From positions 1 through 64,000 of the IMG/VR virus record IMGVR_UViG_3300020442_002661: a stretch of DNA of 64,000 nucleotides; one strand, written 5' to 3'. This document shows, piece by piece, positions 1 through 64,000 of this stretch. Made by a program: the position numbers and the translations under genes. The notes beneath the pieces are model-generated. The model was not told where the DNA came from. It did no database searches and saw nothing but the letters and a program-made list of their open reading frames with translations. Each line of letters opens with the position of its first letter. Positions within the stretch are counted from its first letter, which is position 1. Source of the stretch: a virus.

Positions 1-1261
1 AGTGTTTTAAGTTTGCTCTCCAGAACGCTTCCGGGTTGTGCGCCTTTTGGTACGCGAGTGCCCAGATGAGTCTTCCGAGATTGACCGCATGAGCTCTGCA
101 TAGCCCGAAACCTGATAGTTCTTGAAGCGCCGCCATAGCTTCTTGCTTACGCGGATTATTACCGAGCCTTTCAACAAATTCCAAAATCTTTTCATCATTC
201 TTTTTTGCAAATGCTCTCCTATACATATCGGCTTCATACATATCTACACCGATGATATTACTTATTATATTAATAGCGTCATCTTCGAATACAATACTAT
301 CTTGTACTACTTCTTGTGACCAGTCTTGGAACATAGCGGCCTTCTGTCTACCACTTAGTGCTACAGGTCTGATCATCGCTGTAGCAAATACACAGTCTTC
401 CATGCTGGTGGGTTGTATAGCACGGAATAAACGCCGCATAGCAGGCGATTCTCCTTGGGTCACACCCAACACATCCCCTCTGGCCAATAAGGCGCTTGTA
501 CGGGCGTCTGTGTGCGGATAATCGGCCAATTTAGTGTCTGGATCAATGTCCATTAGTTGTGATAATCCACGGTTTGCTAGTATATCTACTTTGAGATGTT
601 CTAAGTCTTCTACTTCGTGTTTGTCAAGTAGGATTTGGTTGTCTTGTGATATTAATGATTTTGGTAATTGCCTTGTAAACATTACGATGCCTCCACAGTG
701 TTTTGATATTGCTCTTTTCTTACCTAGTAACTTACGTTCAATACGTTTGGCTTCTTTTGAGTCAACGCCAACGCTTTCGTAAGTAAAGTTACGTGGAAGA
801 TTACCTGTGGCACCTAAACGTTTAGCCGCTTCTCGTCTTGCGGATTTTTCTTTGTAGGTGACGTAGTTGCTTAGTCGTGCAGTCTTACCTGGCCATTTGC
901 GGAATATCCTTTCCATGACTTCCGTCTGTCGATGATGTTCAAAGTCTATGTCCACATCTGGTAGATCGTCCCTCAAAGGGTTCATGAACCGTGCCACAGG
1001 TATGTTCCACTTGATTGGGTCTACATCTGTAATACCCAACAAGTAGCATACAAGACTTGAACCAGCAGATCCTCTAGTCATATGAGTAAGGTCTGTGGTT
1101 AGGTCAATTATGTCACAAATTTGAAGGAAGTAATCAGTGAAACGCTGGTTAAGGATGAGCTCAAATTCTTCTGCCAGGCGAGTTTGATAAATGTCTCCGG
1201 GTGGGATAGGCCTTTTAAATCTGTCTAATAGCCTCTGTATGTTTTCTAAATCTGTTGCCAT
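1..1261 (-). CDS. DnaE-like (family C) DNA polymerase, PHP-less, partial
   Basis: The frame is open from the ATG at 1261 to the left edge (420 codons), so the C-terminus lies outside the window. The translation shows the landmarks of bacterial replicative polymerase alpha subunits: RGSAGSSLVCYLLGITDVDP near residue 70, PDVDIDF with two catalytic Asp, a third Asp in LKVDIL, the VTQGESPAMRRL motif, and GFGLCRAHAVNLG near the edge. The N-terminal PHP domain of DnaE is absent; only about 35 residues precede the palm-type segment. AGAGG upstream supports the start. T4 relatives normally replicate with a family B polymerase (gp43), so a DnaE-type enzyme beside gp41/gp61 is unexpected. It could be a working polymerase or a derived repair protein. 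Confidence 0.8.
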   Translation of the reverse strand, partial: MATDLENIQRLLDRFKRPIPPGDIYQTRLAEEFELILNQRFTDYFLQICDIIDLTTDLTHMTRGSAGSSLVCYLLGITDVDPIKWNIPVARFMNPLRDDLPDVDIDFEHHRQTEVMERIFRKWPGKTARLSNYVTYKEKSARREAAKRLGATGNLPRNFTYESVGVDSKEAKRIERKLLGKKRAISKHCGGIVMFTRQLPKSLISQDNQILLDKHEVEDLEHLKVDILANRGLSQLMDIDPDTKLADYPHTDARTSALLARGDVLGVTQGESPAMRRLFRAIQPTSMEDCVFATAMIRPVALSGRQKAAMFQDWSQEVVQDSIVFEDDAINIISNIIGVDMYEADMYRRAFAKKNDEKILEFVERLGNNPRKQEAMAALQELSGFGLCRAHAVNLGRLIWALAYQKAHNPEAFWRANLKH

Positions 1262-1311
1262 TTATAGCCTCTTCATTGTCTTGTTATGCCTAACGTTATT
1301 TCTAACGCAAG

Positions 1312-1584
1312 TTATTTAGCAAGACGAACAGGCACCACATGTGGAAATTTGATTGGAAAAAGTGTAGCATATTTTGAATCAGGATCGTCTATATCAACAT
1401 AGATATCGCATCTACAAAATCTATCTGCGGTTTGACTTTGGCTATGAACTAGTTTCCATGTCCATTCACGCAGTTCAACTTCTTTGTATAGATCCTCGCC
1501 TACTTCTCTACGAACCCATAGTTGTTCTGCTTTTAGGCCTTTATGACTCCATTTGAAATCACACTGTCCTACATAGTATCTCAT
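1312..1584 (-). CDS. Hypothetical protein, 90 aa
   Basis: I do not recognise a family. The product is small, charged and Trp-rich with no membrane segment. Its ATG overlaps the TGA of the upstream acetyltransferase-like gene (ATGA), and the DnaE-like gene follows after a short gap, so it reads as a translationally coupled member of the replication operon. Confidence 0.6.
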   Translation of the reverse strand: MRYYVGQCDFKWSHKGLKAEQLWVRREVGEDLYKEVELREWTWKLVHSQSQTADRFCRCDIYVDIDDPDSKYATLFPIKFPHVVPVRLAK

Positions 1585-2063
1585 TTATACTCAAAGTTTT
1601 GTGTGTTAGGATTGTGCTTGATTAGTTTTGCTCCGTTGCGAATATGAAAATGAGTAGCCATAGGAGTCAAGGGAGATAGTGTGACAACACGTTTGATATT
1701 TTCATTTTGTTTTACATGTTTATATAATTTGTGTATTATTTCTCTACCTGCTCCTCTTTTACGAGACCAAACTGTATAAGCAACAGCAACATTAGCATCA
1801 TCTTTCATGTGTGCATTCTGACTCATTAGATCTAGTTCTCTTACACTTTCAGGTACATCATTAGTGTATGCTACACAAACAATACCTTCAATATTATCTT
1901 CATATTTCAATCCAAATATTTGTCTACCATATTCTTTACGCCAGTCTAATGTAAGTTCAGGACGTACTGGATCTTCTGTTACATCTATATCTTCTAATAT
2001 AACTAACTCAGTTCCCTTTACCCATTTGAAAAAATCATCTAACTTTTTTTGAAATATTTGCAT
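1581..2063 (-). CDS. GNAT-like acetyltransferase fold protein
   Basis: A 160-residue protein. The C-terminal half looks like the GNAT acyl-CoA binding region: a VAYTVWSRKRGAGREIIHKL stretch (beta strand, basic R-x-x-G-x-G-type turn, helix), then a strand with THFHIRNGAKLI. The N-terminal half is not recognisable. It lies 3 bases downstream of gp41 in the same operon. The substrate is unknown; it may modify a protein amine. The fold call is from motif shape only. Confidence 0.5.
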   Translation of the reverse strand: MQIFQKKLDDFFKWVKGTELVILEDIDVTEDPVRPELTLDWRKEYGRQIFGLKYEDNIEGIVCVAYTNDVPESVRELDLMSQNAHMKDDANVAVAYTVWSRKRGAGREIIHKLYKHVKQNENIKRVVTLSPLTPMATHFHIRNGAKLIKHNPNTQNFEYK

Positions 2064-2066
2064 ATA

Positions 2067-62659: not shown

Positions 62660-63603
62660 TATTCTGCGTCTGGATCATTTTCTCTTTTGATAACGCCAAC
62701 AATATATTCACGCAGATTATCATCCATTTGCATTATACCTTCGTTAGCTCTATTAACAGTTTCGTCAACTGTAATTCTAATAGGATCGTATTGTCTATCT
62801 TTCATTCCCATGTCTACAATTTTTAATTTTTCTTGTCCTGGATATGATATGTTAATCGGAAAAGTAGATCCAACAACAACAGTAGTTTCTGTATCAACAG
62901 CATATGACAAATGTTGTCCAACACTATCACAACCTAAGAAATGATCTGCGGCTTTGATTACACTTGTCCACTGCCTTAATCCTAGCCCCTCTGGCATAGC
63001 AACTTCGTTTTTCAATCCTTCACCTTTGAGCTCCATTTTCAATTCGCTCATCATAATAATTCCGTAATCTTTTTCTATAAGTTTTAATAACCTTTTTACA
63101 TCAGCCCATTCAAAACTTCTTCCTGTTGAGTCCATAGGTGTTTCATTAATAATTTCTACACCTCTACCAAAAGGTTGGAATACTAATACTTTATCTTTTT
63201 TTAATTTTTGTTTTACTTCGTCAACTATTTGACGTCCTACAAGTATTTCATTATGACTTAATTTTACAAAAGGTTTATCTAAATCTCTGACTCCTTTTTC
63301 ATTAAGTAGAATATCAAATGCTTGTGATAAATTACATTTTTGATTATAGTATTCCCATACTTGATATGGTTCTGGGTTTACTACTTGCCTATGTTTTATT
63401 TCGCTTTCAAAAAGATTTTTATGCCAAGGATCGTATGCACGTTTATGTAGTGTAGGATGACCTTTAAACATATCTGTGCCACCTTCACATACGATAATAA
63501 AATCTTTATCTCCTGATTCTTCTTCATATTTTTCTAGTGCAGGAATAGAACACAGCATACGCCCAGCGCCGCCATTTAGAAAAAATGCCTTCGATCTTGT
63601 CAT
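62659..63603 (-). CDS. GT9 heptosyltransferase-like protein
   Basis: A 314-residue GT-B protein. FFLNGGAGRMLCSIPALEKY is the N-terminal Gly-rich start, VLVFQPFGRGVEIINETPMD the inter-domain/donor loop, and AADHFLGCDSVGQHLSYAVD then VVVGSTFPINISYPG the C-terminal donor site (compare D-S-G-x-x-H-L-x-x-A and GxTxP in ADP-heptosyltransferases). The likely donor is ADP-heptose, matching the hldE operon. GGAG lies upstream of the ATG. Confidence 0.72.
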   Translation of the reverse strand: MTRSKAFFLNGGAGRMLCSIPALEKYEEESGDKDFIIVCEGGTDMFKGHPTLHKRAYDPWHKNLFESEIKHRQVVNPEPYQVWEYYNQKCNLSQAFDILLNEKGVRDLDKPFVKLSHNEILVGRQIVDEVKQKLKKDKVLVFQPFGRGVEIINETPMDSTGRSFEWADVKRLLKLIEKDYGIIMMSELKMELKGEGLKNEVAMPEGLGLRQWTSVIKAADHFLGCDSVGQHLSYAVDTETTVVVGSTFPINISYPGQEKLKIVDMGMKDRQYDPIRITVDETVNRANEGIMQMDDNLREYIVGVIKRENDPDAE

Positions 63604-63620
63604 ATTATAATTACTCCATT

Positions 63621-63672
63621 AAAAAAGGTCGGACTCAACATTATATATTAAAGTATAGTGTTAAGTCCGACC
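63621..63672 (-). terminator. Strong terminator upstream of GT9 gene
   Basis: GGTCGGACT (63627-63635) pairs with AGTCCGACC (63664-63672), and the stem continues with AACA/TGTT after one mismatch. Minus-strand reading runs directly into TTTTTT. The plus side also has a T8 run at 63689-63696, so it may work in both directions. Confidence 0.75.
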
Positions 63673-63701
63673 CAAATTGGATAGAGAATTTTTTTTAAAT
63701 T

Positions 63702-64000
63702 TTATGCTTCGCCTGCATCTGGTGGATTAGGATCATCCCAATCTGGAAGTGTTTCTTCTGAGAAAGGCCATTTCCAGTGATTAACATTAGCGTATTTACG
63801 TGGTGCATCATCTAACCAATCTGCATGGTTAGTAAGTGTAGTTCTTTCATCGTCTGTGAAAGTTTGGTTTGTGTCCGCTAAAGCACGTCTAATCGCATCT
63901 GATTGTCCCTCTAAACTGTCAAGAACACTTTGTCTTGAGTTATTGTGTTCTCTAAATTGAGGTTCTCTCCATGTGTCTGTTTCATGCGTGTATAGTAAAC
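63702..64000 (-). CDS. Partial late protein, C-terminal 99 residues
   Basis: The frame is open from the right edge to the TAA at 63702. It includes REHNNSRQSVLDSLEGQSDA, NHADWLDDAPRKYANVNHWK and ends DPNPPDAGEA. I do not recognise it. The Trp-rich, acidic ending and the strong terminator after it would suit a virion or tail-assembly protein. Confidence 0.55.
   Translation of the reverse strand, partial: LLYTHETDTWREPQFREHNNSRQSVLDSLEGQSDAIRRALADTNQTFTDDERTTLTNHADWLDDAPRKYANVNHWKWPFSEETLPDWDDPNPPDAGEA

Follow-up and report, generated by a model that had tools for sequence, protein, structure and literature searches.

GCWGC is absent from a fragment of an uncultured T4-like phage and from many of its relatives

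According to Rusinov et al. (2018, PMC6286503), site elimination is a known anti-restriction strategy of phages, used mainly against orthodox Type II systems. In their data, Type III sites show little avoidance and those of Types I and IIG none; the same authors count GCWGC (GCAGC or GCTGC) among the Type IIM sites that are Type II sites too. TseI and ApeKI cleave this word, and some enzymes of the BisI family cut methylated GCWGC better than GCSGC, i.e., GCCGC or GCGGC (PMC4926085); methylation of GCWGC is known in lake Chloroflexi (PMC6329791). Here, we describe the lack of GCWGC in a window of 64,000 bases (the whole stretch of DNA analyzed), part of the 85,962-base virus record IMGVR_UViG_3300020442_002661, and the distribution of this trait among related phages.

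Its genes assign the window to an uncultured T4-like ocean phage (myovirus), of which it is a fragment. PHROG matches identify a T4-type set composed of a terminase, UvsX, gp32, a DnaB-like helicase and a sheath protein, and a primase is also encoded. The terminase is 53.4–53.6% identical to the closest cultured ones, those of Pseudomonas phage PA5oct and its kin (284–288 kb). The phage is probably a jumbo phage (genome above 200 kb), as several relatives exceed this size and reach 275, 335 and 357 kb, the record of the window itself being only a fragment.

Absence of GCWGC and its trace in the codons

The original prediction had claimed a total lack of GCWGC in the 64 kb. A machine count covering both strands confirms this: GCAGC and GCTGC are each found zero times, while 73.8 sites are expected under a maximal-order Markov model (z = −10.9); no other 5-mer with at least 10 expected occurrences in the window has a lower z. 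The full record lacks the word as well (0 vs. 106.0 expected) and, with an observed/expected ratio (o/e) below 0.1 and more than 15 sites expected, classifies as a case of site elimination. GCSGC, on the contrary, is not depleted but enriched (104 observed vs. 64.4 expected; GCCGC 77 and GCGGC 27 on the plus strand). Words one mismatch away from GCWGC occur 1,633 times in the window; the avoidance is specific to the word and spares its near neighbors. The predicted values of about 35% G+C and 40 expected sites were somewhat low (36.2% and 73.8 sites). The lack of GCWGC is true and stronger than first stated. For comparison, six normal relatives carry 1.35–2.61 sites per kb. AAGCTT is also absent (7.9 expected in the record by the Markov model, 19.8 by codon shuffles in the coding sequences); this word is scarce in several relatives and normal in the metagenome-assembled genome (MAG) G033.

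Many word counts are shaped by base composition and codon usage, and a codon or dinucleotide bias, or chance, could be invoked here as well. However, synonymous-codon shuffles of the 62 coding sequences of the window (59,925 bases, 200 runs) give 74.6 ± 4.0 sites (range 64–85) vs. none observed. The sites expected from the shuffles in the three codon phases are 65.9, 5.5 and 3.1, and all three phases are empty. As normal relatives of similar G+C, moreover, have an o/e of about 1, such a bias is hardly credible as an explanation. The bias predicted at codon junctions, with GCG or GCC as the first codon of an Ala-Ala pair, is visible throughout: the 75 alanine codons followed by GC are GCG (49) or GCC (26) and never GCA or GCT, which account for 1,172 of the 1,262 alanine codons in other contexts. 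The tail of gp32, where this pattern had been pointed out, contains seven Ala-Ala pairs, all of them GCG-GCA or GCG-GCT. The permease-like gene (Table 1) obeys the ban too, its four alanine codons before GC being all GCC or GCG.

Protein alignments lead to the same result. At positions where normal relatives have GCWGC, one site being counted once per relative, the window keeps the word at none of 563 sites with identical residues; 465 of these are now GCSGC and 98 are other words. The depleted relative G018 keeps 3 of 578 such sites, G033 keeps 29 of 665, and three normal controls keep 445 of 552, 546 of 697 and 432 of 621. Counted once per site, GCWGC is present at 0 of 89 positions in the window vs. 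58 of 107, 90 of 150 and 66 of 117 in the controls. Loss accompanied by an amino acid change is about equal in the window (851 of 1,414) and in a control (810 of 1,367). Because synonymous shuffles restore the sites, and the alignments show the word vanishing at unaltered residues, the avoidance acts on the DNA and not on the proteins.

The alignments also bear on a mutational origin, in which methylation of GCWGC in the host would raise the deamination of methylcytosine and erode the sites without any selection. The window does have slightly more C-to-T products (GTWGC, GCWAC and GTWAC) than the controls (113 of 1,414 vs. 84 of 1,367, 64 of 1,544 and 88 of 1,533), but no large excess is seen at homologous sites. 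GCSGC, the product of a third-position change, dominates instead (465 of 1,414 vs. 26 of 1,367, 28 of 1,544 and 105 of 1,533), and its excess accounts for the sites that the controls retain, the amino acid-changing losses being about equal. Deamination is therefore not the main route, and we regard it as very improbable as the cause.

Distribution among related phages

The depletion is common among related phages, a fact that the sequence alone could not reveal. Among 111 related records 10 kb or longer (4.04 Mb), picked by homology and not by composition, and with near-copies kept, 37 have zero GCWGC (1,101,781 bases, 1,111.0 sites expected), 62 are normal (o/e of at least 0.6) and 12 lie in between. 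The longer zero stretches (observed/expected) are those of G036 (117 kb, 0/140.4), G037 (110 kb, 0/131.3), G040 (89 kb, 0/85.2), G038 (82 kb, 0/99.4), G041 (66 kb, 0/56.6), G042 (59 kb, 0/100.5), G039 (53 kb, 0/43.7) and G052 (40 kb, 0/24.3). Normal relatives, read in part, are G045 450/504.1, G046 241/327.6, G048 174/174.6 and G049 104/112.7. Pooled, the depleted relatives compared with the normal ones give 11 vs. 447.1 for GCAGC and 405 vs. 221.9 for GCCGC, an exact discrimination between W and S. The phage contig of G033, 335 kb long and probably near-complete, has a few residual sites spread along its length. Their density is 0.102 per kb in shared and orphan genes alike (27 and 6 sites, with 2 outside open reading frames), so recent import does not account for them.

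Scans of IMG/VR with two marker genes yielded different proportions. Among the best 80 loci of at least 599 stretches matching the terminase, 7 are below 0.3 of expectation, 2 are at 0.3–0.6 and 71 are normal. Among the best 80 of at least 600 stretches matching the helicase, 46 have exactly zero GCWGC with at least 5 expected in each (592,447 bases, 507.9 expected); 22 are normal, and the remaining 12 are intermediate or expect fewer than 5.

In cultured kin, of which 36–41 kb each were considered, the counts come close to expectation: PA5oct 58/44.0, Atu_ph07 23/29.9, Phosso 101/104.1, Vibrio 2.275.O 47/58.1 and SCTP-2 17/16.5. Normal counts are also seen in marine T4-like phages with other hosts (50 kb each; HTVC008M 65/58.7, P-SSM2 67/63.4, S-PM2 63/58.0). 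According to the original prediction, a like depletion in phages or hosts that are unrelated but close in composition would refute it. None was seen in two control groups, the IMG/VR relatives of the SAR11 phage HTVC008M and of the cyanophage S-PM2, in which 57 of 80 and 75 of 80 loci expect at least 5 sites. None of these 132 loci has an o/e below 0.3, and 47 of 57 and 75 of 75 reach at least 0.6.

On a terminase tree of 81 rows, 7 changes are enough for the 8 depleted rows, of which the window is one, vs. 7.7 in shuffles, so no clear clustering is seen. When 13 further records were added (94 rows, 17 depleted), 10 changes were needed, at least 4 of them forced by starred branches, and the depletion was clustered (0 of 500 shuffles as low), with the caution that this larger tree contains four long branches, G038 and G040–G042. 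Among its rows with at least 8 expected sites, none lies at 0.2–0.4 of expectation. A single depleted clade is rejected on this larger terminase tree (p-AU 0.00137). The helicase tree has 87 rows (58 depleted, some of which expect fewer than 5 sites, 26 normal and 3 in the middle) and needs 14 changes vs. 24.4 in shuffles, with at least 10 forced by starred branches and, again, 0 of 500 shuffles as low. Depleted and normal phages interleave on the terminase and helicase trees, and on the latter the depletion is clustered but repeated.

The history of these changes can be read in another way, whatever the mechanism: the ancestor of the group may already have lacked GCWGC, the normal lineages having regained it after the pressure ended. 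The outer helicase clades, nearly all depleted (29 of 30, 9 of 10 and 5 of 5 rows, some expecting few sites), speak for such an ancestral loss. However, the agreement in the choice of GCG or GCC at homologous sites, used to date the purge, gave mixed kappa values and no clear signal of shared descent, and the trees give the number of changes, not their direction. An ancestral loss is a serious possibility, at somewhat less than an even chance.

GCWGC is not the only missing word. With elimination defined as an o/e below 0.1 and at least 15 expected (776 patterns tried, uncorrected for their number), 42 of the 111 records have some eliminated word: AGCT in 18, GCWGC in 16 (fewer than the 37 zero records, many of which expect fewer than 15 sites), CTAG in 6, CATG in 4, GTGCAC in 3, and GCGC, CGAAA, ACGCT, GGTACC, GTNNAC and GTAC in one each. 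Examples are AGCT 0/99.9 (G039), CTAG 0/87.4 (G052), CATG 0/35.7 (L006) and GCGC 0/33.6 (G002). The asymmetric CGAAA is found once against 35.2 expected in G019 (L100–L101) and 8/67.9 times in the sister record G017 (L175–L178); GTWAC stands at 46/231.2 in G012 (L132–L139). AGCT is less telling because it is also below 0.1 in the control groups (12 of 62 and 6 of 78 loci). In G016 (L098–L099), the first 13.5 kb (L040) contain no CATG, and the 6 sites of the whole 22.1 kb all lie in the last 8.6 kb, possibly marking a recombination boundary.

Host restriction and other causes

Most probably, GCWGC was eliminated as a restriction site attacked by a host Type II enzyme similar to TseI, ApeKI or BbvI, the latter also having GCWGC specificity. 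This explanation is the best supported because of the exact W/S discrimination, the unchanged proteins, the relatives without the ban and the other restriction-like words that are missing. We infer the host, the enzyme and the cleavage at entry; the absence, its specificity for the word, the neutrality for the proteins, the repeated switching on two trees and the lack of any case in the controls are direct observations. Hosts would carry a Type II system with GCWGC specificity, and unmodified phage DNA containing such sites would tend to be cut at entry. Selection would then strip the sites mainly through synonymous changes in Ala-Ala pairs, the first codon going from GCA or GCT to GCG or GCC, and new sites would be purged continually. 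The pressure would differ by lineage, probably with the host of the moment: where the host has no GCWGC enzyme, close relatives would keep or regain sites, and those facing other enzymes would lose other words.

Several points weigh against this explanation. To find exactly zero in 37 records from diverse lineages is a very strict outcome, which a cause within the phage could also produce. The ban is not absolute everywhere, as the phage contig of G033 tolerates 35 of 412.7 expected sites. The clustering on the helicase and the larger terminase trees means that part of the trait is inherited or tied to lineages rather than switching freely. Finally, no host and no GCWGC enzyme were identified. 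A terminase search of GTDB for the host returned five matches, in MAGs of four unrelated groups, which are probably co-binned phages. In the G034 MAG (Methylophilaceae), a partly depleted phage contig (L144, CAJIZS010000002.1; GCWGC 20/79.5) stands beside a contig of 1.02 Mb, a pairing that possibly reflects a host link or co-binning. This MAG, the sole bacterium co-binned with a partly depleted relative, has no match to three methyltransferase families, although co-binning carries little weight and parts of the MAG may be missing; in its bacterial family, 26 of 60 genomes have C5 methyltransferases, and such a match does not show specificity. As a separate observation, a MAG titled Neomarinimicrobiota contains, probably as contamination, both L140 and L141 (PBPT01000016.1 and PBPT01000082.1); the former is a phage contig of 335 kb, the latter a contig of 153 kb, and their word counts around the terminase are near-equal.

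A phage that avoids sites is expected to lack a protective methyltransferase of its own. Among 56 IMG/VR phage records, many of them fragments, none matched the C5 (PF00145) or N4/N6 (PF01555) methyltransferases, and one (G044) matched D12 (PF02086) below the cut-off. The G033 MAG has three C5 matches and a D12 match at the cut-off, none of them on the phage contig (C57). A GIY-YIG nuclease was matched in 3 of 29 records, once above the cut-off, on another contig of the G033 MAG, and twice below it. In these records, neither phage methyltransferases nor the GIY-YIG nuclease were retained as candidate causes.

A GCWGC nuclease encoded by the phage itself, serving in host DNA breakdown or against rival phages, would leave a phage without sites immune. 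Self-cutting would enforce an exact zero across many lineages, and the gene could sit elsewhere, as the zero records are fragments. However, no gene is present in all 14 depleted records and none of the 12 normal ones compared (incomplete records), the largest surplus being 9 of 14 vs. 3 of 12. An 81-aa protein whose DUF2061 match is sub-threshold forms the clearest family confined to depleted records, with 5 of 14 vs. 0 of 12, or 1 of 12 with the G033 member as the query. The residual sites of the 335-kb G033 contig also speak against such a nuclease, and the bans on other words would demand several of them. That the missing restriction-like words form a mosaic is better explained by varied host enzymes than by one internal cause. 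A phage nuclease is, hence, unlikely, and equally so a variant in which a lineage-mobile gene destroys host and rival DNA and its carriers must have zero sites to survive; in that case, the on/off pattern would follow the gain and loss of that gene.

The original prediction had left open restriction or a methyl-dependent target, and restriction is the form best supported. In the methyl-dependent form, the methylase of one host would mark GCWGC, and a BisI-like enzyme would cut it there or in the next host. A phage leaving a host with a GCWGC methylase would bear marks at that word only; family enzymes preferring methylated GCWGC over GCSGC exist (PMC4926085), and such methylation occurs in lake Chloroflexi (PMC6329791). 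However, two components must act together, and Rusinov et al. describe only weak avoidance for modification-dependent enzymes (PMC6286503). This form is improbable, slightly more so than a phage nuclease.

Gene content and comparison with known systems

The genes named in the text are collected in Table 1. The permease-like gene has no homologue among the records compared for gene content, and its protein carries the label 'tail protein' in PHROG 27398, a PHROG that is probably mislabeled. The four sugar-nucleotide genes resemble what we take to be CMP-KDO and ADP-heptose synthesis and suggest a Gram-negative host. No tRNA genes were found in the window.

Table 1. Features of the 64,000-base window.
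Feature	Position	Strand	Remarks
DnaB-like replicative helicase	2067..3527	−	Second phylogenetic marker
Carbamoyltransferase family	3499–4461	−	Family match
Sugar-nucleotide gene	10212–10895	−	CTP_transf_3
Sugar-nucleotide gene	10864–11637	−	DAHP_synth_1
Xanthine/uracil permease-like gene	11892..13184	−	PF00860
gp32-like single-strand DNA-binding protein	28252..29325	−	phrog_1192; Ala-rich C-terminal tail ~28255–28470
Terminase large subunit	31344..32924	−	First phylogenetic marker
Deoxynucleotide kinase	41732–42340		Gene-association test: 8 of 14 depleted vs. 2 of 12 normal records
Sugar-nucleotide gene	47530–48777	+	PfkB plus CTP_transf_like
Sugar-nucleotide gene	49980–50615	+	HAD phosphatase
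Carbamoyltransferase family	59987–61792	−	Family match

With its exact zeros, and other zeros in close kin, this uncultured phage group holds a readable record of the restriction enzymes it has met. As some sister phages obey the ban and others do not, they provide a natural experiment on the purging and regaining of sites by large phages, and the banned word offers a way to trace their hosts. A cause within the phage, if there is one, would represent a novel type of phage weapon.

None of the titles and abstract openings listed in the literature searches reports GCWGC elimination in marine jumbo phages. The dsDNA phages of Rusinov et al. (PMC6286503) likewise eliminate palindromic Type II sites (o/e below 0.1, more than 15 expected); here, up to 140 sites are expected with zero found, the host and enzyme are inferred rather than known, and the trait comes and goes between relatives. 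Some of these relatives ban other words, the asymmetric CGAAA being one. Staphylococcus phages K and fRuSau02, in which the absence of GATC is ascribed to host enzymes (PMC5618024), also lack a common restriction word completely, but the word and the host differ, and those phages are cultured. A parallel from marine phages is the GANTC depletion in about half of 33 pelagiphage genomes, which is likewise only partly spread in its group, clusters with the phylogeny and matches the methylation motif of the host (PMC9516812); in contrast, the present case concerns GCWGC in T4-like phages, with repeated switching. The mechanism is most likely known restriction avoidance, and what is new is the exact zero across many members of an uncultured phage group, together with the switching between close relatives.

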